Assembly: GCF_001945525.1 (NCBI RefSeq)
Contig: NZ_MPJW01000098.1
Span: 1-60,767 of the forward strand
Direction of reading: 5' to 3'
From: Ileibacterium valens
Lineage (GTDB): Bacteria; Bacillota_I; Bacilli_A; Erysipelotrichales; Erysipelotrichaceae
DNA length: 60,767 nt
Shown: positions 8,502 through 60,135 of the stretch, piece after piece
How the letters are laid out: every line of letters starts with the position of its first letter
How positions within the stretch are numbered: the stretch's first letter is position 1
Notes under the pieces: generated by a model
What the model was told of the DNA's origin: nothing
The model's input: only the letters and a program-made list of their open reading frames with translations
Databases searched by the model: none
Translations under genes and position numbers: made by a program

Positions 8502-8510
8502 GCCAGACCC

Positions 8511-10397: not shown

Positions 10398-10408
10398 GGT
10401 TTATCCTC

Positions 10409-14712: not shown

Positions 14713-16173
14713 ATGCTTCGGTTATGTTTAGCTACTATGATCAACCTTATCTTTCAGGCAAAGGTAAGTGGAACAACTGTTGAGAAAATTTGTGATGCTA
14801 TATTCTCGGTCTACGGGCTTAATTTTCAGGATTGTGGTAGTACAAAAGACCATTTAAAAAATGGCCACGATGATGCAACACGAGATTTGAAAAATGCTGC
14901 TAATCCTATTAATACCCCCCTGAAAGTCACAAAAGCAAATTTCATTAAATACATTTGCCCTTTAATTCGTCCAGAGTACCAAGAAGCATTAATTAAAAGT
15001 ATTCAGGAAATACTAAGAGCGGATGAGACAATCGACGATGAAGCGATCGTAGGCTATGGAAAGGGATATGAGAAAAGATCTCTAATAAACAAGAATACAT
15101 TTTGCTTTTCTGAGACAATGGTGTCTGTTTTGACTTATGCCATTGTCAATAAAAGAAGTACAGACTGCCAGGATGCAGTTAAGCTCATTAGTAAGAATAA
15201 GAACTTTTTGAATGAAGTTAAAAATAATGGTCGAAAAATCTATCTCGAAGAAAAAGCTTTACTTTTAGGATTGCCAATAAAGGCTACTCTTCATGATCCT
15301 GACTTCGATAAAGCATTTATCAAACGGCATGAAGAAGTACTAGATACTACAAATCCAACCAGAGTATCTGTTTTCACAGTGGGAATGGGTAACAAACAAT
15401 TCAAGTTTAAAAATGCAACTGAATTTATAATGGATAATCTTAGCTCTTATGTGATGTCTAGAGAGGTACTTAATCATCCAGAGAAACAAAAGAATCCTGC
15501 AAGATTGGGAATTGACGCTCTACGAAAACTCACGAAAGAAGCCAATCTGAGAAAGGATGAAGCTCTGGGAGATATTTTTCTCTATATTTTTTTAGAGCAA
15601 GTTCTGGGAGCTCCTAAAATAATGAGCAAATTAGAGCTTAATAGTGTGCCCGGGGAAAGTCATACAGATGGAATGCATCTAATGCAGTTAAAGAAAGAAG
15701 GATTACCTTTTAAACAGATTATTTTTGGTGCAGCCAAAATAGTGAACAGTTTAAATGATGCAATTAATAGCGTCTTCGATAAGGTAGTTAGAATTGAAAA
15801 TCAATCAGATGACGAATTACAAATTCTTGATTACTCGATTGGATCCCGTTTATTTTCTCAAGAAGATTCTGAAGCAATTAGAGAATTTTTAATCCCACAA
15901 AAACAAACAGGGTTAGAGCCAGAAAGAGCGTATGCCTGTTTCATCGGGTACACTCTACAACTCGATCCTAGTGGAATGAGCAACGCACAATATATTGAAA
16001 AAGTTGTGGAGCAAACTAAGTCAGATATGAATATGGCGGTTAAGTTTATTAAAGAAAGAATTATCAAACTGGATTTGTCAGATTATGATTTTTATTTTTA
16101 CTTTGTTCCTTTTAATAATGCTAACGACGAAAGAATCAGTATTATCAACGAAATTACTGCATCAGATAATTAA
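14713..16173 (+). CDS. hamA: Hachiman defence protein HamA (DUF1837), with long N-terminal extension
   Basis: Effector of the two-gene Hachiman anti-phage system. The DUF1837 nuclease-like domain occupies roughly 210-486. Its hallmark GDIFLYIFLEQVLGAPKIMS starts near 286 and is followed by SHTDGMHLMQL and IIFGAAK (~337-342). In other members I recall the last motif as FGE-x-K with catalytic Glu and Lys; here the Glu position reads Ala. Residues 1-200 form an extra domain I do not recognise. The ribosome site GGGAGGTGAT is strong. hamB follows after 12 nt. Base composition is clearly more AT-rich than the phage genes, suggesting separate acquisition. Confidence 0.85.
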   Translation: MLRLCLATMINLIFQAKVSGTTVEKICDAIFSVYGLNFQDCGSTKDHLKNGHDDATRDLKNAANPINTPLKVTKANFIKYICPLIRPEYQEALIKSIQEILRADETIDDEAIVGYGKGYEKRSLINKNTFCFSETMVSVLTYAIVNKRSTDCQDAVKLISKNKNFLNEVKNNGRKIYLEEKALLLGLPIKATLHDPDFDKAFIKRHEEVLDTTNPTRVSVFTVGMGNKQFKFKNATEFIMDNLSSYVMSREVLNHPEKQKNPARLGIDALRKLTKEANLRKDEALGDIFLYIFLEQVLGAPKIMSKLELNSVPGESHTDGMHLMQLKKEGLPFKQIIFGAAKIVNSLNDAINSVFDKVVRIENQSDDELQILDYSIGSRLFSQEDSEAIREFLIPQKQTGLEPERAYACFIGYTLQLDPSGMSNAQYIEKVVEQTKSDMNMAVKFIKERIIKLDLSDYDFYFYFVPFNNANDERISIINEITASDN

Positions 16174-16185
16174 GGGAGGTTAATC

Positions 16186-18813
16186 ATGCACACTCCTAGA
16201 GAAGAATATTTATCAGAAGCTATTAGCAGAGATCTAGAAACAAGTGATTATCTCAAAGAAATATTCAATGATTTACTTTATAACTATTCATTAAAATTGT
16301 TTCATATTAATACTTTAGAAAAAGAATTTAATATAAAACACGGTCTCAGATTTGCGGATTTATTATCAAAATCGTTATTACCCTCACTATCAGCAAAGCA
16401 TAAATCTTGGGCTCAAGAAATTATTATTTTGCTTAATTTGCTTCACCCAGATGATCCAAATGTCAAATACTATTTAGGAAATATACTCTCCACGTTAGGT
16501 AACTTTAGAGGATTACAAACTGAAGTTGCAAAAGGTTTTCAAAGCTTAGACCCACTAGATAGCATTTATTTTGATTACGATAAACAGAATCATCAAATCC
16601 CAGGTGTAGAGAATGCGTATTTTTTTCATGATCAGAAGTTGGTTTATGATGGCCTTCAACGGAAATACTTTTCTTATTCAGGGCCTACCTCAATGGGAAA
16701 ATCCTTTGTGGTTCAGACGTACATTGAAAATGAAATACGTATGGGTGAGAAACGAAATTTCGCAATTCTTGTTCCTACAAAAGCGTTGATTAATGAAATT
16801 AAGAGTAACTTAATTTCTTCATTAAAGGAAAAGCTTCAGGAATCAAATTATAAGATAGTCACTTCGGCAGAAGATATAGCTCTTAAAACGATGCATAATT
16901 TTATATTTGTTATGACTCCTGAACGCTTCTTGTACCTTTTATTATCTAAAAATAACGCCAATATAGATTTTCTTTTTATAGATGAAGCTCACAAAATATC
17001 TGAACGTGGCGGCCGAAGTACCTACTATTATAAGATTTTATCTATTCTGGCAGAACGTGACCAAAAGCCAAATATCGTTTTTGCCTCTCCAAATATTCCA
17101 AACCCAGAAGTCTATCTAAAGTTGATTCCAAAAAAAGACATAATTTCATCTGCTAAGGAAAACTATGGAATAGATAGACTATCAACTGAATATAGTCCTG
17201 TTTGCCAATTTAAGTTTTTGATTGACTTAATGGATCATACAGTTGCTTACTATGACGAATATTCAAAAACAAGTACGATAGTCAATTCGAATTTGAACAA
17301 TTTATCTTTCAATGAAATTCTTTCTAAGCTAGGGGCAGCTAAACAGAACCTGGTTTACTGTAGTGCTAAGAATAAAGTTCTTCAAATGGCGGAACAGTAT
17401 TCTAAAGATCTCCCATATCTAAATAATGAGGAACTAGATTCTCTCTCGAACGATATAGCAAATAGTGTGCATAAAGACTGTTATTTAGCTGATTTTGTTA
17501 AAAAAGGCGTTGCCTACCATGTCGGTTATTTACCTTCAACCATCCGGTTGCGCATAGAAAGATGCTTCGAAAAAGGAATATTAAAAACTATCTTTTGCAC
17601 GAGTACTCTTATTGAGGGAATTAATCTTCCAGCAGATAACTTGTTTATTACCAGCTATAAAAACGGGCGATCTAATCTAGCAGAAGTTGAATTTAGAAAT
17701 CTAATTGGTAGGGTTGGAAGGATCAAGTATGGTTTATTTGGTAACGTCTTCTTAGTCCGAAATGATGAAGCAACGAATAATGAAAAGTATCTAGAATTGT
17801 TAGAAACAAAAATTCCTAATCAACAAGTATCAATAGATTTAAAGCCAAACCAAAAGCTTCTGAATAGCATTGTAGAAGATTTAATGAGAGGCGATATCGA
17901 ATTGTCAAAGACGCAGAAAAAAGCAAATGATAAAGAATTTGATGCGGCAAGGAAATTCTCCCTGATATTAATACGTGATATTGCTGTCGATCGACAATCG
18001 CCTACGATGCAAGCCTTTATTGAAGCAGGGGCCTTAAGTGAAGAACGCAAAAATGATATAAAAGAAAAATTTCCAGAGATTAAAACGGGCGATGATATAA
18101 CGATTTCATTTGATCAACAGAACAACCTAAAAAAAGCCATTCAATCAGGATTGAAATATCCTGAAATTGATAGTGATGGAAAAGTAGACTATCAAAAAGT
18201 CGTCGTGTTTCTTGAAAAATTGAGCAACATTTTCAAGTGGAACATATATGAAAGATCGACTTTGGGTAAGGTTGGAAAGGATGGGTCTAATAGAGTACTA
18301 AGATGGTACGCGTTAATTTTAATCCGTTGGATTAGTGGCAACGGATTGAATACAATACTAGGACATATCCTTTCGTATAAATCAAAACATCCAGAAACTG
18401 GCGTATGGGTCGATGGAAATCCTATTGCAGATTTTTATAATGGAAGCATTGCTCATAGAAATTATGTAATGGCTAGCACGATGAGTGAAATTGAAGATGT
18501 TATTCTTTTTCGCTTATGCAACTATTTTAGAAAGTTTTCGTCTGAATACAAAGAAATAAACGGGGTAGATCATTTTGACAACGACTGGTATGAATTTATT
18601 GAATATGGAACTACCAATAAGGTCATGATTTACTTACAACAACTCGGTTTCTCCAGAGAGACGGCTCTCTACATAAAAAAAGGTGGAAAATATCATTTTT
18701 ATGAATGGGAGGACGATATTGTTTTGGATAAAGACTTGTTAGAATCAACTAATATTGGAATAGCGACTGAAGCTAAGGATGTTAAATACAATTACCCAGA
18801 TTTATTCCTTTAA
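16186..18813 (+). CDS. hamB: Hachiman helicase HamB
   Basis: An 875-aa superfamily-2 helicase, partner of HamA. By published work it acts as a DNA-integrity sensor that releases HamA nuclease activity. Motifs: GPTSMGKS (166-173), FIDEAH (264-269), SPNIPNP (motif III variant typical of this group), STLIEGINLPADN (motif V region) and NLIGRVGR (505-512, motif VI). The C-terminal 350 aa are helical with no domain I can name. The start is backed by AAGGGAGG 7 nt upstream. A strong terminator at 18843 closes the operon. AT-rich like hamA. Confidence 0.9.
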   Translation: MHTPREEYLSEAISRDLETSDYLKEIFNDLLYNYSLKLFHINTLEKEFNIKHGLRFADLLSKSLLPSLSAKHKSWAQEIIILLNLLHPDDPNVKYYLGNILSTLGNFRGLQTEVAKGFQSLDPLDSIYFDYDKQNHQIPGVENAYFFHDQKLVYDGLQRKYFSYSGPTSMGKSFVVQTYIENEIRMGEKRNFAILVPTKALINEIKSNLISSLKEKLQESNYKIVTSAEDIALKTMHNFIFVMTPERFLYLLLSKNNANIDFLFIDEAHKISERGGRSTYYYKILSILAERDQKPNIVFASPNIPNPEVYLKLIPKKDIISSAKENYGIDRLSTEYSPVCQFKFLIDLMDHTVAYYDEYSKTSTIVNSNLNNLSFNEILSKLGAAKQNLVYCSAKNKVLQMAEQYSKDLPYLNNEELDSLSNDIANSVHKDCYLADFVKKGVAYHVGYLPSTIRLRIERCFEKGILKTIFCTSTLIEGINLPADNLFITSYKNGRSNLAEVEFRNLIGRVGRIKYGLFGNVFLVRNDEATNNEKYLELLETKIPNQQVSIDLKPNQKLLNSIVEDLMRGDIELSKTQKKANDKEFDAARKFSLILIRDIAVDRQSPTMQAFIEAGALSEERKNDIKEKFPEIKTGDDITISFDQQNNLKKAIQSGLKYPEIDSDGKVDYQKVVVFLEKLSNIFKWNIYERSTLGKVGKDGSNRVLRWYALILIRWISGNGLNTILGHILSYKSKHPETGVWVDGNPIADFYNGSIAHRNYVMASTMSEIEDVILFRLCNYFRKFSSEYKEINGVDHFDNDWYEFIEYGTTNKVMIYLQQLGFSRETALYIKKGGKYHFYEWEDDIVLDKDLLESTNIGIATEAKDVKYNYPDLFL

Positions 18814-19410: not shown

Positions 19411-19986
19411 ATGCTCGATTTAAAAATTCAAAACGAAGACAAAGAACAGGTAGTGAGACTGGATGCCAGTGAAGCAAACGGCTGGTTAAACATCTGGATG
19501 GAAGAGAACGAAAGTGAAGAACATTTCGGAACGCGGCTCCAGCAAGAGATTGAACTTCAAATCAATCGTCCCGACTACAACATCTGGCATCGAGAAACCA
19601 GACATCTAGGCTGCAGCAAAGCCAAACCGGATGAAAATGGCATCTATCCGGAAGAACCACTTATGAGTGAGCTTCGCGACCCGTCCATCTATATCAAAGA
19701 ACAGTTGGACAGAGAGCAGCGGTGGGAATACGAAACCTGCTGTAAATGGTTCCGGGATAATTTCAAACCGGCCCAGGCAGACATGATGATTGCCATCATC
19801 CTTGATGACTGCTCCATTGAGGAATACGCGAGACGGATTGGGGACAATCCCAACAACGTCAGTCACCGATTTGTCAGAGCGAAAAAGAAATTGAAAAAAG
19901 TTTATGAGGAATGTCCTATTTCAGCTTCTCCCGTGGCTAACCAATGGGAGGGGCGCCACTCCCACAAACAGAAAGGTGGTAATTGA
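19411..19986 (+). CDS. Phage sigma-factor-like / HTH regulator
   Basis: A 191-aa protein. The C-terminal half QADMMIAIILDDCSIEEYARRIG and following NVSHRFVRAKKKLKKVYEE resembles sigma-70 region 4 (a helix-turn-helix that contacts the -35). Residues 1-110 are acidic and unassigned. It may direct early phage transcription or be a sigma-like relic. The start is backed by GAAAGGA 7 nt upstream. The last ~25 codons run through an RNA hairpin motif that precedes the antirepressor gene, so the natural end may carry regulatory sequence rather than protein function. Confidence 0.6.
   Translation: MLDLKIQNEDKEQVVRLDASEANGWLNIWMEENESEEHFGTRLQQEIELQINRPDYNIWHRETRHLGCSKAKPDENGIYPEEPLMSELRDPSIYIKEQLDREQRWEYETCCKWFRDNFKPAQADMMIAIILDDCSIEEYARRIGDNPNNVSHRFVRAKKKLKKVYEECPISASPVANQWEGRHSHKQKGGN
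19913..19963 (+). ncRNA. Phage RNA hairpin motif, copy A
   Basis: GTCCTATTTC, then stem CTCCC (19928-19932), loop GTGGCTAACCAAT, stem GGGAG (19946-19950). It shares the GTCC-Y-ATTT and GGCTA(A)CC signature with three other copies. A second CTCCC at 19959 could pair with the same GGGAG, giving two alternative folds, 25 nt before the antirepressor start. Confidence 0.55.
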
Positions 19987-19987
19987 G

Positions 19988-20788
19988 ATGCAATTACTGA
20001 AATTTGAAAATAACGAATTCGGTTCTATCAGAACCATCAGCATCGACAACCAGCCCTGGTTCGTCGGGAAAGACGTAGCGGAATGTCTGGGATATTCCAA
20101 TCCGCGAAAAGCGATTATCGATCATGTAGATTTAGAAGACAAATGCGATGGGGTAACGATTCGTGACTCCATCGGTAGGGAACAGACTCCAATGCTGATC
20201 AGCGAATCCGGACTTTACTCACTGATCATGTCTAGCAAGCTTCCAAAAGCTAAAGAGTTCAAGCACTGGGTAACTTCCGAAGTTCTGCCATCCATCAGAA
20301 AGCATGGAGCCTATTTGACTCCAGATACTCTCGGTCAGGCAATTGCTGATCCAGATTTTGCAATCGGGCTTCTCTTTGCTCTTAAAGATGAGCAGACAAA
20401 GAACAAAGCTTTACAAGCTGATAACGATCGGATGAAACCCAAGGAAATCTTCAGTGATGCTGTTGCTACTAGCAAGACAAGCATCCTGATCGGTGACCTG
20501 GCTAAGCTGCTTAAGCAAAACGGTGTAGATACAGGACAGAAACGTCTGTTCGCATGGATGAGGGATAACGGATACCTGATCAAAAGAAAAGGCGCAGATT
20601 GGAATAGTCCGACCCAACGTTCGATGGAGATGGGATTGTTTGAAATCAAGGAAACAAGTATCAATCATCCTGATGGTTACGTGAAAATCGTCAAAACCAC
20701 TAAGGTGACAGGCAAAGGTCAGATTTACTTCACGAATCTGTTCCTCGACCAGAACCGAATGAACCAGGAAATGGAGGTAACTGCCTAA
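19988..20788 (+). CDS. Phage antirepressor, BRO-N plus KilAC domains
   Basis: 266 aa from ATG 19988 (AAAGGTGG upstream). The BRO-N fold is at ~1-105 (PWFVGKDVAECLGYSNPRKA and KHWVTSEVLPSIRKHGAYLT), and the KilAC DNA-binding domain is at ~150-255 (IGDLAKLLKQNG...QKRLFAWMRDNGYL). Such proteins bind DNA or repressor and promote lytic genes. No CI-type repressor is visible in the prophage, so its partner is unknown. It ends with TAATG, shared with the next start, so translation is coupled. Confidence 0.85.
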   Translation: MQLLKFENNEFGSIRTISIDNQPWFVGKDVAECLGYSNPRKAIIDHVDLEDKCDGVTIRDSIGREQTPMLISESGLYSLIMSSKLPKAKEFKHWVTSEVLPSIRKHGAYLTPDTLGQAIADPDFAIGLLFALKDEQTKNKALQADNDRMKPKEIFSDAVATSKTSILIGDLAKLLKQNGVDTGQKRLFAWMRDNGYLIKRKGADWNSPTQRSMEMGLFEIKETSINHPDGYVKIVKTTKVTGKGQIYFTNLFLDQNRMNQEMEVTA

Positions 20789-49145: not shown

Positions 49146-50114
49146 ATGCCAAATTCAACATTAGCTTCTTATAACGCCGATTGTACGAAACGAAATCCAA
49201 GAAACCATATTATTGACAGGCTGACGCCTCACTATATGGCTGGAAATCTTGGAGCCAGGCAGTGTGCAGATTATCTTAAAAGCACAGAGAGACAGGCGTC
49301 CTGTAATTACTGCATTGGAAGCGACGGCTCAATTGCAGTCTGTGTTCCGGAAGATTATCGAGCCTGGACTTCCTCCAGCTATGAAAATGACTGTAGGGCA
49401 GTGACCTTTGAATGTGCGAATATCGACAGCAATGGAACATTGACCGATGCCTGTTATCAGGCTCTGGTTAAGCTTTCGGCTGATGTCTGCAAAAGACATG
49501 GATTTAAACCTCATTATGATGGAACGACAAACGGTTCCATCACCATGCATAAACAGTTCGCAGCTACCAGCTGTCCAGGAAACTGGCTGACGCAGAAAAT
49601 TGAGAGTGGTCAGTATGAAAAAGATGTGCTGGCTGCAATGGGAGAAACCCAGGCTTCCAATCCAGCTTCTGGCCAGCTGTACCGAGTTCGAAAAAACTGG
49701 AACGATGCGGTCAGCCAGATTGGAGCTTTCCGAAATCTTGAGAATGCAAAGAAGGCATGCAAAGCTGGTTACAAAGTTTTTGATGCACATGGGCATCAGT
49801 TGTTTCCTGATCCATCTTCTTCAGCAGAAACAAAGAAAACCAATGACACCATTGCGCAGGAGGTTATTAACGGGAAGTGGGGCAATGGCTCTGATAGAAT
49901 CACCCGTTTAAAAGCTGCTGGATATGATCCCAATACTATTCAGGCTTTAGTTAATCTGAAACTGGGAGCTTCTTCCAAAAAATCGGTGGATGCGATTGCC
50001 AGAGAGGTTATTGCTGGAAAATGGGGCAATGGGCAGGATCGAATCAACCGTCTTTCCAAAGCAGGTTATAACCCAACAGAAGTTCAGCATCGAGTCAATC
50101 AGCTGCTGAGATGA
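49146..50114 (+). CDS. Endolysin: N-acetylmuramoyl-L-alanine amidase with two Cpl-7 repeats
   Basis: 322 aa from ATG 49146 (GAAAGGAGA upstream). The Amidase_2 domain is ~1-160 (DRLTPHYMAG with Zn-binding His; MHKQFAATSCPGNW). A SPOR-like segment follows (LYRVRKNWNDAVSQIGAF...NAKKACKAGYKVF). Two CW_7/Cpl-7 cell-wall-binding repeats come last: IAQEVINGKWGNGSDRITRL and IAREVIAGKWGNGQDRINRL. It cuts the peptide stem from muramic acid. A strong terminator follows. Confidence 0.95.
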   Translation: MPNSTLASYNADCTKRNPRNHIIDRLTPHYMAGNLGARQCADYLKSTERQASCNYCIGSDGSIAVCVPEDYRAWTSSSYENDCRAVTFECANIDSNGTLTDACYQALVKLSADVCKRHGFKPHYDGTTNGSITMHKQFAATSCPGNWLTQKIESGQYEKDVLAAMGETQASNPASGQLYRVRKNWNDAVSQIGAFRNLENAKKACKAGYKVFDAHGHQLFPDPSSSAETKKTNDTIAQEVINGKWGNGSDRITRLKAAGYDPNTIQALVNLKLGASSKKSVDAIAREVIAGKWGNGQDRINRLSKAGYNPTEVQHRVNQLLR

Positions 50115-50118
50115 GTAA

Positions 50119-50171
50119 TAAAAGGCGGTGGGCCCTGCTCCATTAGTGGAGTGAGCCCGCCGCCTTTTATA
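50119..50171. terminator. Strong terminator after the endolysin
   Basis: TAAAAGGCGGTGGGC pairs with GCCCGCCGCCTTTTA (one mismatch), with an inner CTCCA/TGGAG hairpin. It works in both directions, separating the late operon from the convergent reverse-strand pair. Confidence 0.9.
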
Positions 50172-50215
50172 TTGGGTTTCACAAGCAAGAGGGTTCTTTC
50201 AATGGTCTATGAGCT

Positions 50216-50581
50216 CTATTCGTTTCTCGGTCTTCCTGGTGTGAAAGTGAAAGTCTCATTGGCTTTATCGATGAAGTCGTCTAATGGACACCAGTTTTGT
50301 CCTGGATAGTGGTAGCTGAATAGTTTATATAGTTTCCCGTTTTCATCAACGCTGTTCTGAGCGCTAACTGTGATATTTCCCCGGTTAGTCCAGTAGTGGA
50401 AAATCAAGAAACCGGAATTGTCGAGAGAACAGCGGATACCTTTATTGATAGTCTTGGCTAAGTCAGATAATTCAGATAGAGGAACTCCGTGAAAATATTC
50501 CTCTGGTTCTACAGGTCGAGAAACAGGCGCAGGAGCACGTTTGGTATTCCTGCTGCTGGATTTAAAAATGTCCCATAACAT
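50216..50581 (-). CDS. Unrecognised reverse-strand phage protein
   Basis: 121 aa with AAGGAGG before the ATG. The N-terminal 30 aa are basic and Pro-rich; the rest is a compact alpha/beta domain (DLAKTINKGIRCSLDNSGFL, YHYPGQNWCPLDDFID). Second gene of a two-gene unit opposite to the rest of the prophage, 14 nt after its partner. The convergent placement suggests lysogenic expression (moron); no function is known to me. Confidence 0.6.
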   Translation of the reverse strand: MLWDIFKSSSRNTKRAPAPVSRPVEPEEYFHGVPLSELSDLAKTINKGIRCSLDNSGFLIFHYWTNRGNITVSAQNSVDENGKLYKLFSYHYPGQNWCPLDDFIDKANETFTFTPGRPRNE

Positions 50582-50595
50582 ATTGTATTTCCTCC

Positions 50596-50958
50596 TTAGT
50601 ACCAGGCTTCCATGCCATTTTCTGGGATGGAACCAGCGTTATAGCTTTTTATAATCTGATGAACAGCATGACTTCCATAAAAGGTCCATCGCATTTCTTC
50701 TGTAGCAACAGGCCATTCTTCTTCGGTCAGTTCCGGCTTTCCCTCATCGATGCGCATTTGGTTCATGGACTGACGCATGCTGTTTTGCTCTTCTACAGAG
50801 GACGAGCACCAGAAATCACCTTCAGCCAGTTCTAAATCAACTTCTTCTGCTATTCGGTCAATGATTACTTTTCCTGGCTTTTTGGTTCTGTCATTTTCTG
50901 GCCAATAATAATAAACAACATGACTGTCATCTTTCTCAATCAATTCAAATGACACCAT
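50596..50958 (-). CDS. Unrecognised acidic reverse-strand phage protein
   Basis: About 120 aa, starting MVSFELIEKDDSHVVYYYWP. ATG 50958 has GGAG 8 nt upstream; the earlier in-frame ATG 50976 has no good ribosome site. Very acidic middle (EEVDLELAEGDFW), helical end. First gene of the reverse pair. The acidic partner beside a basic protein could be an inhibitor or immunity factor, but that is speculation. Confidence 0.6.
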   Translation of the reverse strand: MVSFELIEKDDSHVVYYYWPENDRTKKPGKVIIDRIAEEVDLELAEGDFWCSSSVEEQNSMRQSMNQMRIDEGKPELTEEEWPVATEEMRWTFYGSHAVHQIIKSYNAGSIPENGMEAWY

Positions 50959-51032
50959 ACAATTCTCCAAAGCCATAACTCTTGTTTTTTAACGATATAG
51001 CAGCATATTTCACGATTCAACCGTAATTTTAT

Positions 51033-51062
51033 TTGAACTGTTTCAGGTTCAGATCTTTTTTT
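51033..51062 (+). terminator. Leader terminator-like hairpin upstream of the DUF2800 operon
   Basis: TGAACTG...CAGGTTCA stem (one bulge) followed by TCTTTTTTT, on the plus strand where no gene lies upstream. It could act as an attenuator ahead of tandem RNA motifs B and C. Confidence 0.4.
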
Positions 51063-51070
51063 GGCCAAAC

Positions 51071-51110
51071 GTCCTGGATCCCTTATTTTCACGGCTACCC
51101 AGTGAGGGAT
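51071..51110 (+). ncRNA. Phage RNA hairpin motif, copy B
   Basis: ACGTCC, then stem ATCCCT (51078-51083), loop with CACGGCTACCC, stem AGGGAT (51105-51110), which ends on an ATG at 51111. First of two tandem copies before the DUF2800 operon. Confidence 0.6.
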
Positions 51111-51156
51111 ATGCAGACGATCGATCAGAAAGAAATTTTAGAAATCTTCTGGAAAA

Positions 51157-51197
51157 CGTCCGATTTTTCCTCTTCCCAAGGCTACCAGTTGAGGAAA
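51157..51197 (+). ncRNA. Phage RNA hairpin motif, copy C
   Basis: CGTCCGATTT, stem TTTCCTC (51166-51172), loop with AAGGCTACC, stem GAGGAAA (51191-51197), about 30 nt before the 67-aa gene. Same signature as copies A, B and D. Confidence 0.6.
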
Positions 51198-51227
51198 GCA
51201 GTAAGCCCTCTGGAAAGGAGGAAACCC

Positions 51228-51431
51228 ATGAAGCAGAACCTTCATATCTGCGTTTCAAAGCAACGGATGGAACAGAGTGCCATCAGCTGCAGAAACATTA
51301 CCATCCGTGAGCGTCTTCTGAACTTTCTGTTTGGAAGAAAGCACCAGATCACCATCCTCGTTCCTGGCGATGCGATCGAGGAACTTGAGATCACGAAGTC
51401 GAAGAAAGGAGAACCCGTATGTGCGAAGTAA
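51228..51431 (+). CDS. Small conserved phage protein before DUF2800 module
   Basis: 67 aa from ATG 51228 (AAAGGAGG upstream). ISCRNITIRERLLNFLFG and ITILVPGDAIEELEI form a pattern I have seen at this place in other Bacillota prophages, function unknown. The open frame continues upstream through RNA copies B and C, which I treat as leader, not protein. Confidence 0.6.
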   Translation: MKQNLHICVSKQRMEQSAISCRNITIRERLLNFLFGRKHQITILVPGDAIEELEITKSKKGEPVCAK

Positions 51432-51748
51432 ATGTAAACACCGAAAATCTGAAGAGCGTGATCGCTGACCTGGAAAGTTTAACCAATCACCTCAAAGCTA
51501 TGCTTCAAGAACCGCCTGAATCGAAAACCGCTCAGAAGAAGAATCCGGATTCCAAAAAAACAAAGGCGGAAAAGAAGAATTGTTCTCTGGAAGAAGTCCG
51601 TGCAATTCTCGCTGAAAAAAGCAGAGCAGGCTTAACCGCTAAGGTGAAAGAACTGATTGCCAAATACGGTGCAGACAAACTGTCCGATGTAGATCCGAAA
51701 TACTATGCGGATCTGACCAAAGAAGCAGGAGAACTTGCCAATGGCTAA
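51419..51748 (+). CDS. Phage protein with C-terminal helical domain
   Basis: 109 aa. Helix ~8-32, a Lys-rich linker, then LEEVRAILAEKSRAGLTAKV and LIAKYGADKLSDVDPKYYADL. The latter block is common in phage proteins often mislabelled as ligase or rRNA-biogenesis protein; I assign no function. It overlaps both neighbours and belongs to the DUF2800/DUF2815/polymerase operon. Confidence 0.65.
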   Translation: MCEVNVNTENLKSVIADLESLTNHLKAMLQEPPESKTAQKKNPDSKKTKAEKKNCSLEEVRAILAEKSRAGLTAKVKELIAKYGADKLSDVDPKYYADLTKEAGELANG

Positions 51749-52871
51749 GCATGCAAAGCTTTCACCGTCCAGTTCCCATCGCTGGCTCGAATGCACACCC
51801 AGTGCCAATCTGGAAGCCGAATTTGAAAGCAAAACAAGCCAGGCAGCCGAAGAAGGAACAGCCGCTCATGCCCTTTGTGAACACAAGCTGAAACGGGCAT
51901 TGAAGAAGAGAAGCAAACGCCCGGTTTCCGTATATGACAGCGATGAGATGGAAGAATGCAGTGATGCTTATGTTCAGTTTGTTCTTGAAAGCTATGAAGC
52001 TGCAAAACAGAACTGCAAAGATCCGCTGATCTTGATCGAGCAGAAAGTCGATTTCTCAAAATATGTGCCGGATGGATTTGGCACTGCCGATTGCCTGATC
52101 GTATCAGACGGCAAGCTTCATGTAATTGACTTCAAATATGGAACCGGAGTTCTGGTTGATGCCAAGGATAATCCGCAGATGAAATGCTATGCGCTTGGAG
52201 CCTTAACACTTTTTGACTCCCTCTACGACATCCAGGAAGTCTCGATGACCATCTTTCAGCCGAGAAGAGAAAACGTCTGTACCTGGACTATTCCTATCCA
52301 CGAATTGCTGCAGTGGGCTGATGAGGTATTGAAGCCGAAAGCGCAGCTGGCCTTGAAGGGTGAGGGTGAATTTCATTCTGGTCCCTGGTGCACATTCTGC
52401 AGAGCGGAAGCTAGATGCAGGGCGAGAAGTGAAGAAAAGCTTCAGCTGGCACAGGAAGAATTCAGACTGCCGCCCTTGCTTACCGATGAGGAAATCGAAG
52501 AAATACTGGCTGTGCTGCCAGAGCTTACCAGGTGGGCCAATGACCTTATGGCCTATGCATCTGAAGCTGCGATTGAACATGGAAAGCAGTGGAAAGGCTT
52601 CAAGGTTGTAGAAGGCCGTTCTAACCGTAAGTACAAGGATGAAGCTAAGGTGGCTGAAGCCTGCAAAGAAGCAGGATATACCGATATTTACCGTCAGTCT
52701 CTGATCCCGCTGACTGAAATGGAAAAGCTGATGGGAAAAGAAACTTTCAAAAAAATCCTGGGTGATTTCATCATCAAACCCCAGGGAAAACCAACTCTCG
52801 TTCCGGAAACGGATAAGAGAAAAGCCATAGAAGTGAAAAACGCGAACAGCGAATTTAAGGAGGAACAGTAA
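51741..52871 (+). CDS. DUF2800 protein, RecB/Cas4-like PD-(D/E)xK nuclease
   Basis: 376 aa from ATG 51741 (AGGAG 10 nt upstream). LSPSSSHRWLECTPSANLE and EEGTAAHALCEHKL open the domain. GTADCLIVSDGKLHVIDFKYG carries the D...DxK nuclease core. CTFCRAEARCRA late in the protein supplies cysteines like the Fe-S cluster of RecB-type nucleases. It likely processes DNA ends in phage recombination together with the DUF2815 protein. Confidence 0.88.
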   Translation: MAKHAKLSPSSSHRWLECTPSANLEAEFESKTSQAAEEGTAAHALCEHKLKRALKKRSKRPVSVYDSDEMEECSDAYVQFVLESYEAAKQNCKDPLILIEQKVDFSKYVPDGFGTADCLIVSDGKLHVIDFKYGTGVLVDAKDNPQMKCYALGALTLFDSLYDIQEVSMTIFQPRRENVCTWTIPIHELLQWADEVLKPKAQLALKGEGEFHSGPWCTFCRAEARCRARSEEKLQLAQEEFRLPPLLTDEEIEEILAVLPELTRWANDLMAYASEAAIEHGKQWKGFKVVEGRSNRKYKDEAKVAEACKEAGYTDIYRQSLIPLTEMEKLMGKETFKKILGDFIIKPQGKPTLVPETDKRKAIEVKNANSEFKEEQ

Positions 52872-52872
52872 A

Positions 52873-53421
52873 ATGGCAAAAGCAAATAAAACAAGAGTGA
52901 TTACAGGACGCAACACACGTCTTTCATATTTCCACGGATGGGAACCCGCATCCATCAACGGTGGACCGGAACGTTATTCTACTTCTGTCCTCATCCCGAA
53001 GGACGATAAGGAAACAATCGATGCCATCAATAAAGCGATTGATGCGGCTATCGAAGAAGGAATTGCAAAATTCGGTGGAAAGAAGCCCAACAAAGCAGCG
53101 ATTAAGCTTCCGCTGCGCGATGGCGATGCAGAGCGAGAGGATGAAGCCTACAAAGGTCATTACTTCCTGAATGCCAATTCGAAGACTGCGCCGCAGATTG
53201 TGGATAAGTCTATTAATCCGATTCTGGATCGTGATGAAGTGTACAGTGGATGCTACGCACGTGTTTCTCTGAATTTCTACGCTTTCAACTCCAATGGGAA
53301 TAAAGGAGTGGCTGTGGGCCTTGGAAACATCCAGAAAATTCGAGATGGAGAATCGCTGGGCGGTCGCTCTACAGCTGCTGAAGATTTCCAGACTGAAACG
53401 GATGACGACTTCCTGAACTAG
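52873..53421 (+). CDS. DUF2815 protein, ssDNA-binding type
   Basis: 182 aa. The start RVITGRNTRLSYFHGWEPAS and the end AVGLGNIQKIRDGESLGGR are typical of DUF2815, regarded as an OB-fold single-strand DNA-binding protein of phages. Acidic C-terminal tail TETDDDFLN, like SSB tails. It directly follows DUF2800 (1-nt gap). Confidence 0.88.
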   Translation: MAKANKTRVITGRNTRLSYFHGWEPASINGGPERYSTSVLIPKDDKETIDAINKAIDAAIEEGIAKFGGKKPNKAAIKLPLRDGDAEREDEAYKGHYFLNANSKTAPQIVDKSINPILDRDEVYSGCYARVSLNFYAFNSNGNKGVAVGLGNIQKIRDGESLGGRSTAAEDFQTETDDDFLN

Positions 53422-53441
53422 GCAATGAGAAGGTTAACGAT

Positions 53442-53624
53442 ATGAATGACTTATTTGAAATTGCCCTTCAGTGGGATGTGATCTTCCTGTTCGCCATCTT
53501 TATCGAAATCTCGATTATCGGCTGGTGGAATATTTTCTCTTCCATCCTGAAGTGGATTCAGAAAAAGCTCGAAAAGAAATGGCTTCGTGAGTTTGAAGAA
53601 GAACAGAACGCCAGAAACCAGTAA
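53442..53624 (+). CDS. Small membrane protein
   Basis: 60 aa. One membrane helix (WDVIFLFAIFIEISIIGWW) and an amphipathic basic/acidic tail. Between DUF2815 and DNA polymerase genes; unknown role. Confidence 0.55.
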   Translation: MNDLFEIALQWDVIFLFAIFIEISIIGWWNIFSSILKWIQKKLEKKWLREFEEEQNARNQ

Positions 53625-53629
53625 AACAC

Positions 53630-53653
53630 GCGGAGGGGAATCGTCCTCTCCGC
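53630..53653 (+). terminator. Hairpin before the polymerase gene
   Basis: GCGGAGGGGA/TCCTCTCCGC, 10 bp with one G-U and a 4-nt loop. No T run follows, so it may be RNA-stability or processing related rather than a true terminator. Confidence 0.5.
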
Positions 53654-53678
53654 TATTTATATATGGAAGGAGAAGCAG

Positions 53679-55637
53679 ATGAAAAACATCAGCATCGATA
53701 TCGAAACGTTCTCCAGCGTGGATCTTGGCAAATGCGGAGTTTATAAATATGCGGAAAGTCCTGACTTCGAGATTTTGCTGTTCGGATATTCCGTTGATGG
53801 AGACCCCGTTCAGGTTGTGGATCTTGCTTCAGGAGAGCAAATCCCATGTGAAATTCTTGCAGCTCTGATGGATTCAAAAATTCGGAAATGGGCTTTCAAC
53901 GCTCAGTTTGAAAGGATCTGCCTGTCAAGATATCTGTCAGATCTGGGAGTGGCTATCGGAACAGGAAATGGATATCTGAACCCTGACTCCTGGTTTTGCT
54001 CCATGGTCTGGTCAGCTACATTAGGACTTCCACTTTCGCTGGAAGGTGTGGGAGCCATTCTGGGATTGGAAAAACAGAAGCTGACAGAAGGAAAAACTCT
54101 GATTCGATATTTTTGCATTCCCTGTTCACCTACTAAAACCAATGGGGGAAGGACTCGAAATTATCCGACAGACGATCCTGAAAAGTGGAAGAAGTTCAAA
54201 GTCTACAATTTAAGAGATGTTGAAACCGAAATGGGCATTCAGTCAAAACTCTCCCGATTCCCGGTCAGCGGCAGCATCTGGTCTGAATACCACCTGGATC
54301 AGATTATCAATGACAGAGGGATTGGCGTAGACATGCCCTTTGTCCACAGCGCAATAGACCTGGATGGCATGAGCAGAGAACTGCTTACTGACGAACTCCG
54401 GAAAAAGACGGGACTAGAGAATCCAAACTCTGTCATGCAGATGAAAGAATGGCTTTCTCAGAACGGTCTGGAAACAGACACGTTGGGGAAAAAGGCTGTT
54501 GAGCAGCTGATTAAAGAATCTCCGGAAGATCTGGCTGAAGTTCTGAAGCTTCGGCAGCAGCTGGCCAAAAGCAGCGTCAAGAAATATACGGCTATTTTAA
54601 ATGCCGTCTGCAAAGACTCCAGAGTGAGAGGTATGTTTCAGTTTTATGGAGCAAACCGAACTGGTCGGTTTGCTGGCCGACTGGTACAACTGCAAAATCT
54701 GCCACAAAACCATATGAGCGATCTTGAAGCAGCCAGAGGGCTGATCAAGGTCAGAAACTATGAGGCTGTCAGTCTGCTCTACGACAACATTCCAGATGCA
54801 CTTTCCCAGCTGATCCGGACTGCCTTTGTCCCTCAAAACGGGAACAAGTTCATCGTTTCCGACTTCTCTGCCATCGAAGCCAGAGTTTTGGCCTGGCTGG
54901 CCGGAGAACAATGGCGGATTGACGTGTTCGAGCAGGGGAAAGATATCTACTGCTCAAGTGCTTCCCAGATGTTTGGTGTTCCAGTTGAAAAGCATGGAAT
55001 TAATGGCCATCTGCGTCAGAAAGGGAAGATTGCGGAATTGGCTCTTGGTTATGGCGGCTCGGTCGGTGCTTTAAAAGCAATGGGCGCTCTTGAAATGGGC
55101 CTTTCTGAAGACGAGCTTCAGCCTCTGGTAAATGCCTGGAGAAATACAAATCCGGCAATCACTGATCTCTGGTGGGAAGTGGACCGTTGCGTAAAAGAAA
55201 CCGTAAAATACCGGGTTCCAACGAAAACGCATGGAATCCGATTCAGCTATGAAAGCGGATTTCTGTTCATCACGCTGCCATCCGGAAGAAGATTGGCTTA
55301 TGTAAAGCCAAGAATTGGAATGAATCAATTCGGCAGCGAATCTGTTACTTATGAAGGAGTAGGCGGAACCAAGAAATGGGAACGTCTGGAAAGCTATGGT
55401 CCGAAGTTTGTCGAAAACATCACTCAGGCAATAGCCAGGGACATTTTGATGTATTCCATGAAGACTTTGGAAGGCTATGCTATCACAGCTCATGTTCATG
55501 ATGAGCTGATCATTGAATGTCCAAAAGAAACGGACCTCGACTATATCTGCAAGCAGATGGGAAAGACCCCACCGTGGGCGGATGGACTTGTTTTGCGAGC
55601 AGATGGATACGAATGCGAATTTTATAAAAAGGATTGA
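53679..55637 (+). CDS. Phage DNA polymerase, family A
   Basis: 652 aa. The exonuclease domain opens with SIDIETFSSVDL (DxE) and has NAQFERICL. The polymerase part has GANRTGRFAGRLVQLQNLPQ, SDFSAIEARVLAWLAGE (motif A), RQKGKIAELALGYGG (motif B) and HVHDELIIECP (motif C with the catalytic Asp). It replicates phage DNA. Strong AAGGAG before the ATG. The coding end precedes RNA motif copy D. Confidence 0.95.
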   Translation: MKNISIDIETFSSVDLGKCGVYKYAESPDFEILLFGYSVDGDPVQVVDLASGEQIPCEILAALMDSKIRKWAFNAQFERICLSRYLSDLGVAIGTGNGYLNPDSWFCSMVWSATLGLPLSLEGVGAILGLEKQKLTEGKTLIRYFCIPCSPTKTNGGRTRNYPTDDPEKWKKFKVYNLRDVETEMGIQSKLSRFPVSGSIWSEYHLDQIINDRGIGVDMPFVHSAIDLDGMSRELLTDELRKKTGLENPNSVMQMKEWLSQNGLETDTLGKKAVEQLIKESPEDLAEVLKLRQQLAKSSVKKYTAILNAVCKDSRVRGMFQFYGANRTGRFAGRLVQLQNLPQNHMSDLEAARGLIKVRNYEAVSLLYDNIPDALSQLIRTAFVPQNGNKFIVSDFSAIEARVLAWLAGEQWRIDVFEQGKDIYCSSASQMFGVPVEKHGINGHLRQKGKIAELALGYGGSVGALKAMGALEMGLSEDELQPLVNAWRNTNPAITDLWWEVDRCVKETVKYRVPTKTHGIRFSYESGFLFITLPSGRRLAYVKPRIGMNQFGSESVTYEGVGGTKKWERLESYGPKFVENITQAIARDILMYSMKTLEGYAITAHVHDELIIECPKETDLDYICKQMGKTPPWADGLVLRADGYECEFYKKD

Positions 55638-55641
55638 GAAA

Positions 55642-55683
55642 CGTCCTATTTCACCTCCTGCCACGGCTACCTGGTAGGAGGTG
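55642..55683 (+). ncRNA. Phage RNA hairpin motif, copy D, burying a ribosome site
   Basis: CGTCCTATTT, then a perfect 8-bp stem CACCTCCT (55652-55659) / AGGAGGTG (55676-55683) around GCCACGGCTACCTGGT. The right arm is the AGGAGG ribosome site of the gene starting at 55691, so folding should block its translation. Confidence 0.7.
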
Positions 55684-55690
55684 TTTTCTT

Positions 55691-55927
55691 ATGGAAGAAA
55701 CAACGATTACCAGACTGGATAAAGGAACTGAAATCTATCCAGAAGCGATGAATAAGATTTCTCATGAGCTGCTCATCCGGGACTGTAAGTACCAAATGGC
55801 CCAAAAAATGACTGCGTCGCTTCTCGAGAACGGGCTGATCAGTAAGAAAGAATTTAACCGAATTACGGAAAAGAATAGAGCTTCATTTATGCCTTACTTA
55901 TCGGAGATTATGCCGAAATTGAGTTGA
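55691..55927 (+). CDS. SHOCT-like small protein before the recombinases
   Basis: 78 aa from ATG 55691. LLIRDCKYQMAQKMTASLLE and GLISKKEFNRITEKNRASF: the latter resembles the SHOCT helix pair (L-x-x-G-I-I-T-x-E-E-F). Such small proteins are often found directly before serine recombinases and may be direction factors. Its ribosome site is inside the RNA motif D stem. Confidence 0.65.
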   Translation: MEETTITRLDKGTEIYPEAMNKISHELLIRDCKYQMAQKMTASLLENGLISKKEFNRITEKNRASFMPYLSEIMPKLS

Positions 55928-55975
55928 TAAGCTTCGGATAGTACGCAAATATGTGCTGACGGAAAGGAGGTCGTC

Positions 55976-57535
55976 ATGACAAAAACAATTACAAAAATCG
56001 ATCTAGATGAACAACAGCTGATAGCGAAGAAAACACGAGTCGCGGCTTACTGCCGAGTGTCGACTTCCAGTGCAGAACAGCTGATCAGCCTGGATGCTCA
56101 GAGAGCTCATTACGAACAATACATCCGATCAAATCCGGAATGGGAGTTTGTCGGAGTCTACTACGATGAAGGCATTTCTGGAACAAAGAAGAAAGACAGA
56201 TTTGGCCTGCTGAATCTCATCCGAGATAGTGAGATCGGTAAAATCGATCTTATTTTAACCAAATCTATCAGCCGGTTTAGTCGAAGCACGACAGACTGTC
56301 TTGATATGGTTCGAAAATTGATGAACCTGGGGGTCAGGGTTCTATTTGAAAAAGAGAACATCGACACAGGAAGCATGGAAAGTGAGCTCATGCTTTCCAT
56401 TCTAAGCAGCTTGGCTGAAGACGAGTCCCATTCCATTTCCCAGAACATAAGATGGAGTGTTCAGAAAAAGTTTCAAGACGGTACATATCAGACTTCCGTT
56501 CCTGCTTATGGCTATCGGAATAAGGACGGGAAGATGGTTCTAATCCCTGAACAGGCCGAAGTAATCAAACGGATTTTTGAAGATTCTGTCAATGGAAAAA
56601 GTACCTGTCAGATTGCCAAAGAACTCAATACAGAGAATACCCCAACACAAAGAGGGGGAAAGTGGCACTCGACAACGGTGAATTCGATCATCAGAAATGA
56701 AACCTATACGGGAGACGCCTTGTTTCAGAAGACCTATACCGATGATAACTTCAACCGCCATTCAAACACCGGTGAGAAAAACATGTACATTGTCGAGAAC
56801 CATCATGAAGCGATCGTCAGTAAAGAAATCTTCGAACTTGCTAACAGAGAGCTTGAACGTCGAGCTGCAGAAAAAGGACATGAAGCAGGAAATGATTCCT
56901 ATGGCAACCGCTATTCCTTCTCTGGAAAAATCTATTGCAAAGAATGCGGATCAAAGCTGAAGCGGATGAAGCATGCAATGCCAGAGCCTGGAATCATCCT
57001 CTGGTCTTGTAAGGGACACCTGGCCGACAAGACAGCCTGTTCTTTGAAGGCAATCAAAGATGAAGAGTTGAAAACCGCCTTTATCACGATGCTGAATAAA
57101 CTACGTTTTGCCAAAGATCAGATTTTATATCCGCTCTTGAAAAGTCTTCAAGGATTCGATAGCCAGGAAAACTTGATCAGAATAGATGAAATTACAGAAA
57201 GACTGGAAAAGAATCTCGAACAACAACAGACCTTAGCTGGCTTAGTCTCTGACGGAATTATTGAACCGGCATTGATGACCAAACTTAGAAACGAGCTGCT
57301 TCAGGAGCAAACGAAACTGGAAAAACAAAAAGCTGAATTATCCGAGTCGATGGTGGGAAATAGGTCACAGATAGATGAGCTAAAGAAACTCATTTCTTAC
57401 CTGACCTCTTCCAACACTCTGGAGGAATTTAGTGACGATCTTTTCGACACCTTCGGAGAAAAAATAATCGCCATTTCCAGAAGTGAAGTGGAATTCGAGC
57501 TGAAATGTGGACTCAAACTTAAGGAGGGACTATGA
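55976..57535 (+). CDS. Large serine recombinase 1
   Basis: 519 aa. Resolvase domain ~15-155 with [11 protein letters not shown] (nucleophile Ser), RFSRSTTD (arginines) and YYDEGISGTKKKDR. Recombinase domain ~180-270, zinc ribbon IYCKECGSKLKRMKH..ILWSCKGH, and coiled coil ~405-460. It cuts and rejoins att sites via a Ser-DNA bond. First of three genes that abut (stop TGA directly before the next ATG). Confidence 0.93.
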   Translation: MTKTITKIDLDEQQLIAKKTRVAAYCRVSTSSAEQLISLDAQRAHYEQYIRSNPEWEFVGVYYDEGISGTKKKDRFGLLNLIRDSEIGKIDLILTKSISRFSRSTTDCLDMVRKLMNLGVRVLFEKENIDTGSMESELMLSILSSLAEDESHSISQNIRWSVQKKFQDGTYQTSVPAYGYRNKDGKMVLIPEQAEVIKRIFEDSVNGKSTCQIAKELNTENTPTQRGGKWHSTTVNSIIRNETYTGDALFQKTYTDDNFNRHSNTGEKNMYIVENHHEAIVSKEIFELANRELERRAAEKGHEAGNDSYGNRYSFSGKIYCKECGSKLKRMKHAMPEPGIILWSCKGHLADKTACSLKAIKDEELKTAFITMLNKLRFAKDQILYPLLKSLQGFDSQENLIRIDEITERLEKNLEQQQTLAGLVSDGIIEPALMTKLRNELLQEQTKLEKQKAELSESMVGNRSQIDELKKLISYLTSSNTLEEFSDDLFDTFGEKIIAISRSEVEFELKCGLKLKEGL

Positions 57536-57952
57536 ATGGCAGCACATATTCCTTACGGCTATCAGATTATCAATGGAAAAGCCATCATCAACGAAGAGGA
57601 AGCAGCTAAGCTTAATATTCTCTTTGAAACCTGTGCATCTGGATCTTCCATTCTCTCAGGAATCCAAAAATCAGGAATCGGAAAAAGCCATGGCCAAGCT
57701 GGGCTCTATCTGCGGGATCAACGCTACCTTGGAACGGAGTTTTATCCACAGATTATAGAAAAGGAGGTCTTTGAAAAGGCCGAACAATATCGCCTGGAAA
57801 GATGCACGAAACTTCGAAAGGGAAGCTGGAAAAAGAAAAGAGAAGTAAAGAAACCAGGGATGAATTTCAGAATGGGAAAAGTCCCTAAACGCTATAAGGA
57901 TCCATATAAGCAGGCGGCATTTGCCTACAGCATGATAGAAAGGATGGATTAG
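57536..57952 (+). CDS. Recombinase-like protein lacking the catalytic domain
   Basis: 138 aa. [20 protein letters not shown] and [25 protein letters not shown] resemble the DNA-binding recombinase domain of serine integrases, but there is no resolvase domain and no zinc ribbon. The C-terminus is very basic. It starts right after recombinase 1 and ends 4 nt before recombinase 2. This three-gene set recurs in Bacillota prophages; the middle member is probably a directionality or architecture factor. Confidence 0.75.
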
Positions 57953-57956
57953 GATC

Positions 57957-59522
57957 ATGAACAGAACCGTTACAGTCATTCCTGCAAGACGACGGAAGGG
58001 AAACCGAGTAGCCAAGGAAGAACGACCAAAATTGAAGGTTGCAGCCTATTGCCGCGTCAGTACCGACAGCGACGAACAGGCTACCAGCTACGAAGCTCAG
58101 GTTGAACACTATAGAGAATTCATCAGCAAAAACGATGAGTGGGAATTTGCAGGCATTTATGCTGATGACGGTATTTCCGGTACCAATACCAAAAAGAGGG
58201 AAGAATTTAACCGATTAATTGAAGATTGTCTTCTTGGAAAGATCGATATGGTAATTACCAAATCGATCAGCCGCTTTGCCAGAAATACCCTGGACTGCTT
58301 GAAATACATTCGAGAGCTCAAGGACAAAAATATCGCAGTCTTCTTCGAAAAGGAAAACATCAATACGCTGGATTCCAAAGGAGAGGTGCTGCTGACGATC
58401 ATGGCTAGCTTGGCTCAGCAGGAATCGGAATCGCTCAGCAAAAACGTCAAGCTCGGACTGCAATTCCGATACCAGAATGGTCAAATTCAGATCAACCATA
58501 ATCGGTTCCTCGGATATACCAAAGACGAGGATGGAAAGCTGGTCATCGAACCAGAGGAAGCTGAGGTAGTTAAACGTATTTATTATGAATATCTTCAGGG
58601 TGCCAGCTTAAAAAATATAGCGGAGGGATTGGAAAAGGATGGAATTCTGACTGGCGCTGGAAGAAAAACCTGGAGAGCAGAAACGGTCAGAGGGATCCTC
58701 TGCAACGAGAAATATGCTGGTGATGCGCTGCTTCAGAAAACCTATACAGTCGATGTTCTCAACAAGAAACGAATTGCCAATAACGGAATCGTTCCTCAGT
58801 ACTACGTCGAGAATAGCCATGAAGCTATTATTCCAAAAAATCTCTTCATGCAGGTGCAGGCAGAGATGCAGCGAAGAACAAATCTACGCGCGGGCAAGGG
58901 CAATAAGCAAAGACATTACTCAAGCAAATACGCTTTATCCGGCATAGTCTACTGCTCTAAGTGCGAAGACGTTTATCGACGTATTTCTTTGAGAAATAAC
59001 GGAAAGCCGGCAATCGTTTGGAAATGTATAACCAGAGCAGAACGCGGACCGTTAGCTTGCTACTCGGAAATTATTAAGGAGCCAGAACTTCACCAGGCGG
59101 TGGTCGATGCCATCAACCAGGTCATTGGAAGCAGAGATGAAATGCTGGAGATTTTGGAACAGAACATTGAAGCTACGATCAGTGAAAATGATGAAAATGA
59201 AGTCGAGAGAATAGATGAAGAACTGGAAAGCCTACAGACGGAACTTCTGAAAAAGGCAAACGCCCATCAGGACTATGATGATCTTGCGGATGAGATTGAC
59301 CGATTGAGGGAAGAGAAGGAGAACATCCTAAAGCGGCAGGCCAACCAGGAAGAAGTCAAAAGGCGAATCGAAACGATGCGCGAATTTCTGAACAACCATC
59401 AGGAAGAATTGAACCAGTACGATGATCAACTGGTTAGAAGAATGATCGAAAAAATTACGATATATGATGAGCGGTTTGAGTTTAAGTTCAAATCGGGAAT
59501 TAACCTAGATGTTGAGAGATAG
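57957..59522 (+). CDS. Large serine recombinase 2
   Basis: 521 aa. [14 protein letters not shown] (Ser nucleophile), [14 protein letters not shown] and [13 protein letters not shown] mark the resolvase domain. The recombinase domain is ~190-290, and the zinc ribbon is [12 protein letters not shown] with WKCITR..PLACY. A long coiled coil ~400-490 and end LDVER follow. It is related to, but clearly diverged from, recombinase 1. Both seem intact, so integration and excision may need a pair. A terminator follows. Confidence 0.93.
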
Positions 59523-59955: not shown

Positions 59956-60135
59956 GACTTGTTCCCTAATACGCAGAAAAGCCAAAAAACCTAGTTGATT
60001 TGTTTTCACAAACGTAGAATGACCAAAAAATGCTAGTAGACATGTTTTCTCATACAAAGGAAATCATCTAAAACGGATTGGATTTGTTTTCTCAGATGAG
60101 AACGGCCATATTTTCTGTGATTGACTAGTTTTCTA
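59956..60135. repeat. Five imperfect direct repeats of 41-42 bp
   Basis: Units begin GAYTTGTTTTCTCA at 59956, 59997, 60039, 60081 and 60123 (steps 41, 42, 42, 42), with middle ACG-AGAA-GGCCAAAAAA and end CTAGT. Not CRISPR, because the whole unit is conserved and no unique spacers exist. It resembles multi-site ends of IS21-type elements. Confidence 0.75.

Follow-up and report, generated by a model that had tools for sequence, protein, structure and literature searches.

The window analysed here, i.e. the whole stretch of 60,767 nucleotides from Ileibacterium valens, carries a phage polA gene followed by a hairpin-forming element (copy D), a gene for a small SHOCT protein and a cluster of genes related to DNA recombination (Table 1). 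The sequence-only reading had called the small protein SHOCT-like, in agreement with the SHOCT_2 domain encoded by ORF 55691-55927 (Pfam 2.7e-14), and had counted three recombinase genes; two of these encode full large serine recombinases whereas the middle one encodes a 138-aa phrog_7701 protein without a Pfam domain. Elsewhere in the window, a gene for HamA (Pfam 2e-36) followed by a gene for a DEAD/helicase protein (14713-18813) lies just upstream of the phage early region and is probably a Hachiman defence pair. Genes for a type III-like restriction enzyme (5454-8501), a DNA methylase (8514-10397) and an SNF2/helicase protein (11035-14313) adjoin this pair on the minus strand (5451-14313), and the Erysipelothrix phage phi1605 also has type III restriction-modification genes near its end. 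A region devoid of long ORFs (59986-60094) holds three 25-nt repeats at a spacing of exactly 42 nt, which may derive from a formerly repeated coding unit.

Table 1. Coordinates of the element copies, their parts and the neighbouring genes in the window.
Feature	Positions	Strand	Details or basis
Copy C	19909-19953	+	Box GAATGTCC; GGCTA 19935-19939; arms CTTCTCCC/GGGAGGGG
Segment 3 and antirepressor SD	19959-19979	+	CTCCCA; SD GGTGG 19975-19979
Antirepressor	19988-20788	+	Bro-N and KilAC (ANT) domains
Copy A	51067-51110	+	Box 51067-51074; GGCTACC 51093-51099; stem ATCCCT/AGGGAT; replication operon leader
Copy B	51154-51197	+	Box 51154-51161; GGCTACC 51180-51186; arms TTTCCTC/GAGGAAA; tandem with copy A
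phrog_7234 protein, 67 aa	51228-51431	+	First replication-operon gene, 3' of copies A and B
Phage DNA polymerase A (polA)	53679-55637	+	Stop codon immediately 5' of copy D
Copy D, 5' box AAACGTCC	55639-55646	+	Consensus AANYRTCM; repeat and motif comparison
Copy D, P1 left arm CACCTCCTGCCA (anti-SD)	55652-55663	+	Fold
Copy D, GGCTA loop box	55665-55669	+	18 nt past the 5' box in nearly all found copies
Copy D, P1 right arm TGGTAGGAGGTG with sole SD of SHOCT ORF	55672-55683	+	Fold
U-run TTTTCTT, terminator-like	55684-55690	+	Directly 3' of the stem, between SD and start codon
SHOCT_2 protein, 78 aa, phrog_2996	55691-55927	+	Pfam 2.7e-14
Large serine recombinase	55976-57535	+	
phrog_7701 protein, 138 aa (annotated DNA invertase)	57536-57952	+	No Pfam domain
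Large serine recombinase	57957-59522	+	

Between 55639 and 55693, copy D reads AAACGTCC, TATTT, CACCTCCTGCCA, CGGCTACC, TGGTAGGAGGTG, TTTTCTT and ATG. The perfect 8-bp stem that had been claimed here is present, with CACCTCCT (55652-55659) pairing with AGGAGGTG (55676-55683), and it extends inwards by the four pairs of GCCA/TGGT (one of them G-U). The geometry is accordingly a stem of 12 bp, P1, with the 8-nt loop CGGCTACC and not 8 bp with the 12-nt loop GCCACGGCTACC proposed before. GGAGG in the right arm of P1 is the sole Shine-Dalgarno sequence (SD) for the ATG at 55691, as the earlier reading had it. The minimum free energy of 55639-55690 is -23.3 kcal/mol compared to -10.3 +/- 2.6 in shuffled sequences (z -5.0; none of 200 shuffles as good), and folding of a longer stretch around copy D gives z -3.3. 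In three different contexts the SD bases have a predicted unpaired probability of at most 0.02, i.e. the SD is predicted to be sequestered by base pairing in the default fold, and the start codon of the SHOCT gene is predicted to be mostly open.

The label copy D is correct. In a direct-repeat search, a 33-nt block whose internal spacing does not vary came up at 51067, 51154 and 55639, in line with the pattern scans, and a weight-matrix scan added a diverged fourth copy at 19909; the paired pattern ACGTCC-N8..30-CGGCTACC occurs twice, compared to an expectation of 0.00 in shuffles. A scan of the host genome found no copies beyond these four, which belong to one prophage. The element spans ~45 nt and consists of the box AANYRTC, a fixed interval of 18 nt, GGCTA in the loop and the partly covarying stem P1. 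Because the first scans required exact boxes, the consensus was rebuilt from copies located by position (after polA, before the antirepressor gene and before the replication operon), and reads AANYRTCM, then either GATTT or TTTTT, followed by a left arm rich in pyrimidines, GGCTA, a short run of bases and GTAGRGG. The 18-nt interval is constant while the register of the stem shifts, within the limit that the weight matrix itself carries this interval and would miss copies with other intervals. Copies A and B lie in tandem in the leader of the replication operon, and the left arm of copy B can also pair with the SD of the 67-aa gene at 51217-51221, as it does in the predicted fold. Tandem copies (51067-51197 here) are also present in the closest relatives, L325-L329, and absent from most others. 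The 3' end of a sigma-like ORF extends into copy C, upstream of the antirepressor gene; in the fold predicted for this copy, P1 forms and the SD of the antirepressor gene is base-paired.

Among 80 polA-encoding viral contigs, 55 carry the motif at one or both of two expected places, i.e. ~4.3-5.0 kb upstream of polA (before the phrog_7234 gene) and 0-14 nt past the polA stop codon; about 25 carry it at neither. True copies mostly score 20-60 in the weight-matrix scan, compared to 11.7 at most in the reversed-sequence control, and the minus strand of the 80 contigs yielded only two weak matches (12.4 and 15.5 bits). The same positions are occupied in the Streptococcus phages Javan422 and Javan630, in phi1605 and in Ruminococcus NatCom phages, and the motif-bearing Ruminococcus phages are assigned to Ca. 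Heliusvirales. A third place, that of copy C in the window, lies between the sigma-like ORF and the Bro-N/KilAC antirepressor gene. The gene 3' of polA encodes a SHOCT protein in many phages and an HTH-type protein in others, suggesting that the element is tied to the place and not to SHOCT. A second match in L281 is a further copy, with all 12 bp of P1 pairing perfectly (GCCTCCTCTCGC/GCGAGAGGAGGC) and TTTTTGTTT following the stem, a terminator-like arrangement. When the spacing was left loose, pattern scans of viral and genome collections returned chance matches for the most part, and a blastn search of PLSDB with one query gave no plasmid copies. No Rfam family matched the element in the window or in motif-bearing loci, no known aptamer model matched it (it has two short conserved boxes only), and no description of the motif was found in the open-licence literature. 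The element is real and conserved and, as far as these searches reach, apparently undescribed.

P1 is conserved together with the boxes. In 33 distinct copies after polA, the 11 tested P1 pairs are kept in 91.5% of cells compared to 38-56% when slid, and three of the pairs have changed on both sides; covariation by pairs changed on both sides is modest relative to shuffled letters (145/500). Each arm of P1 matches its own partner better than one swapped in from another copy, both after polA (z -6.55, n=35, 0 of 10000 permutations) and at the other places (z -4.42, n=69, 0 of 10000), figures that are inflated by the relatedness of the sequences, and the reversed-arm controls gave z +1.1 and +0.6. 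Run across all copies, RNAalifold returned no shared structure, owing to the shifting register of the stem, and P1 is slight or absent in a few replication-leader copies (L357, L378 and the first copy of L036). For a pseudoknot formed by AANYRTC with GGCTA, no covariation was seen by eye among variants, and the pseudoknot is not supported. A coding peptide with the 6-codon interval (KTSxF...GY) was rejected: in relatives it is interrupted by internal stops, its reading frame is not constant with respect to polA, and Pro, Ser, Leu, Met or Ala codons replace that for Thr. An RNA thermometer is unlikely, as a stem of -23 kcal/mol would be expected to stay closed at growth temperature.

A second potential partner for the right arm exists at the other two places. 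In the replication leader, the right arm GAGGGC is also complementary to a segment just upstream of the SD (segment 3), and this segment 2:3 pairing covaries (z -5.29, 0 of 10000) with compensating pairs that include GAGGAC/GTCCTC, GAGGGC/GCCCTC, GAGGGT/ACCCTC, GAGAGC/GCTCTC and GAAGG/CCTTC. Before the antirepressor gene a similar complementarity is visible by eye, for instance GGAGGTC/GACCTCC in Javan630 and UUAGAGGGA/UUCCUUCUAA in L424. The SD may itself be covered by segment 3, a pairing whose covariation does not exceed that of any anti-SD, and in the window the segment 3 preceding the antirepressor gene has alternative pairings with the right arm of copy C and with the SD.

The place after polA is distinguished by a run of T residues. 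Of the 40 copies there, 33 have at least four consecutive T between the SD and the start codon, compared to 26 of 567 spacers that follow other SDs in these phages, and copies at the other two places are mostly without a U-run. In copy D, the stable GC-rich stem of 12 bp followed by TTTTCTT has the anatomy of an intrinsic terminator, and most copies after polA resemble such terminators in that the GC-rich stem runs directly into the U-run. Unlike in a plain intrinsic terminator, the SD of the next gene forms the 3' arm, and the stem includes conserved boxes for which termination has no need. In several motif-less sister phages, an unrelated hairpin with a T-run, again terminator-like, lies right after polA, as if this junction needs a stop. 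Given the strong stem and the frequency of the T-run, we regard copy D as a putative terminator and SD lock together, and, judged by its sequence, terminator action is at least as likely as control by translation only.

The polA junctions of motif-less phages are structured in other ways. In L331, L332, L339, L345, L380, L396, L399 and L403, ~10-110 nt past polA, there is a terminator-like hairpin with TTTTTCTTTGCCTGTGA, or TCACAG...CTGTGA hairpins, followed by the same layout of TAGRAGG, CCTTC and GGAGG; possibly, a different sensor has been joined to the same SD switch in these phages. GGGGTTCGATTCCATCGG, which resembles a tRNA T-arm, lies ~10-30 nt past polA in the junctions of L332, L333 and L335.

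The nearest neighbour of the element in role is the DUF2800 RNA (RF02960), which is cis-regulatory and, in the relatives L339 and L345, is located close to the beginning of the replication operon (DUF2800 exonuclease, ssDNA-binding protein and polA) that has the motif in other phages. Copies A and B occupy the corresponding position, preceding an operon with a DUF2800 gene at 51735. The DUF2800 RNA differs from the element in that it has 158 nt and several stems, whereas the element of ~45 nt is repeated at three operons. RF02960 had no match in the window at the gathering threshold (60.2 bits), none over 50000-56500 at E 10 and none in seven motif-bearing loci at E 1. Because the DUF2800 RNA is found in some motif-less relatives, phages seem to use different leader RNAs at the replication operon. 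The element also resembles SD-sequestering leaders and translational riboswitches in having the SD in a stable stem and alternative anti-SD pairings; unlike riboswitches, it has no known aptamer-like core or ligand, and a single short element is shared by three different expression platforms of one phage.

Combining conservation, position and predicted folds, we suggest that the element is a small cis-regulatory phage RNA that would keep three operons off until AANYRTC...GGCTA is recognised and would act after polA as a terminator and an SD lock, a proposal to which we give an even chance of being correct; that the element is an off-switch for its three gene groups is, from the sequences, probable. 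The proposed scheme has the following parts: (i) the element precedes the antirepressor/early, the replication and the SHOCT/recombinase operons, and at each of them P1 would be built from the anti-SD left arm and the purine right arm GTAGRGG; (ii) at the polA/SHOCT place, P1 would be both an intrinsic terminator and a lock on the SD within its right arm, so that with P1 formed the downstream genes would be off at transcription and any read-through transcript would be poorly translated; (iii) at the other two places, the right arm may pair instead with the downstream anti-SD segment that otherwise covers the SD, and if this switching holds, formation of P1 would mean off there too; and (iv) a common trans-acting factor, which may be a phage protein, a host protein or an RNA, presumably reads both boxes and sets whether P1 forms. 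The conservation of AANYRTC and GGCTA at three unrelated places points to one such factor or signal. The phrog_7234 protein was dismissed as the specific factor because its gene is also present in 15 contigs without the motif. More tentatively, and in our judgement somewhat short of an even chance, the element may define a phage-wide regulon in Heliusvirales, in which one factor or signal reads it at the three operons and coordinates antirepression, replication and integration/excision after transcription initiation, with a terminator that also serves as the SD lock at the integration module.

Several other explanations have to be weighed against this scheme. The sequence-only reading held that P1 buries the SD and that a ligand or protein opens it to allow translation of the SHOCT gene and, with it, integration or excision. 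The translational part finds support in the fully paired SD of the prediction and in the conservation of the SD within the stem after polA in ~35 distinct copies. A lock on translation only is nevertheless unlikely: the T-run, so rare in ordinary spacers, would be superfluous for an SD lock, the same boxes recur at two other operons, and sister phages have other terminator-like hairpins at the polA junction. Similarly, the element is conserved before recombinase genes as expected for control of integration or excision, and its presence before the replication operon and the antirepressor gene argues against a function specific to integration. If one takes the terminator anatomy as the whole of the function, P1 would be a plain intrinsic terminator of the replication operon with the SD as its 3' arm by chance and without regulation; the strong stem and the U-run fit, but termination does not depend on AANYRTC, GGCTA or the fixed spacing between them, which are nevertheless conserved at three unrelated sites, two of them mostly lacking a U-run, making this explanation improbable.

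The nut sites of phage lambda and the put sites of HK022 combine a linear box with a hairpin loop and occur in several copies per phage at operon starts. In layout only, the element is like them, in that a linear box precedes a hairpin whose loop is conserved, the spacing is fixed and copies recur at operon starts, and it could recruit a factor to RNA polymerase, or modify the polymerase directly, for processive antitermination at the three operons, P1 after polA happening to be one of the terminators. We judge such antitermination to be about as improbable as the plain terminator: no sequence relation to nut or put was found, the site after polA itself looks like a terminator, no N-like or Q-like factor was identified, and the copies elsewhere are tied to SD pairing. 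Lastly, the boxes are more conserved than the stem, of which some copies have little, as would fit recognition of the boxes by a protein at the DNA level or their pairing with a phage small RNA; the copy-specific complementarity of the arms, and the location of confident copies at expected places on the coding strand shortly before a start codon, render this the least probable of the explanations.

Many gut Firmicutes harbour such phages. In Streptococcus and Erysipelothrix, relatives contain tetM, mef(A)/msr(D) and spectinomycin-resistance genes, and several of these genes lie close to the recombinases. With its copies before the antirepressor gene, the replication operon and the recombinases, the element would provide a testable control point in these phages and a probe for the factor that reads it.
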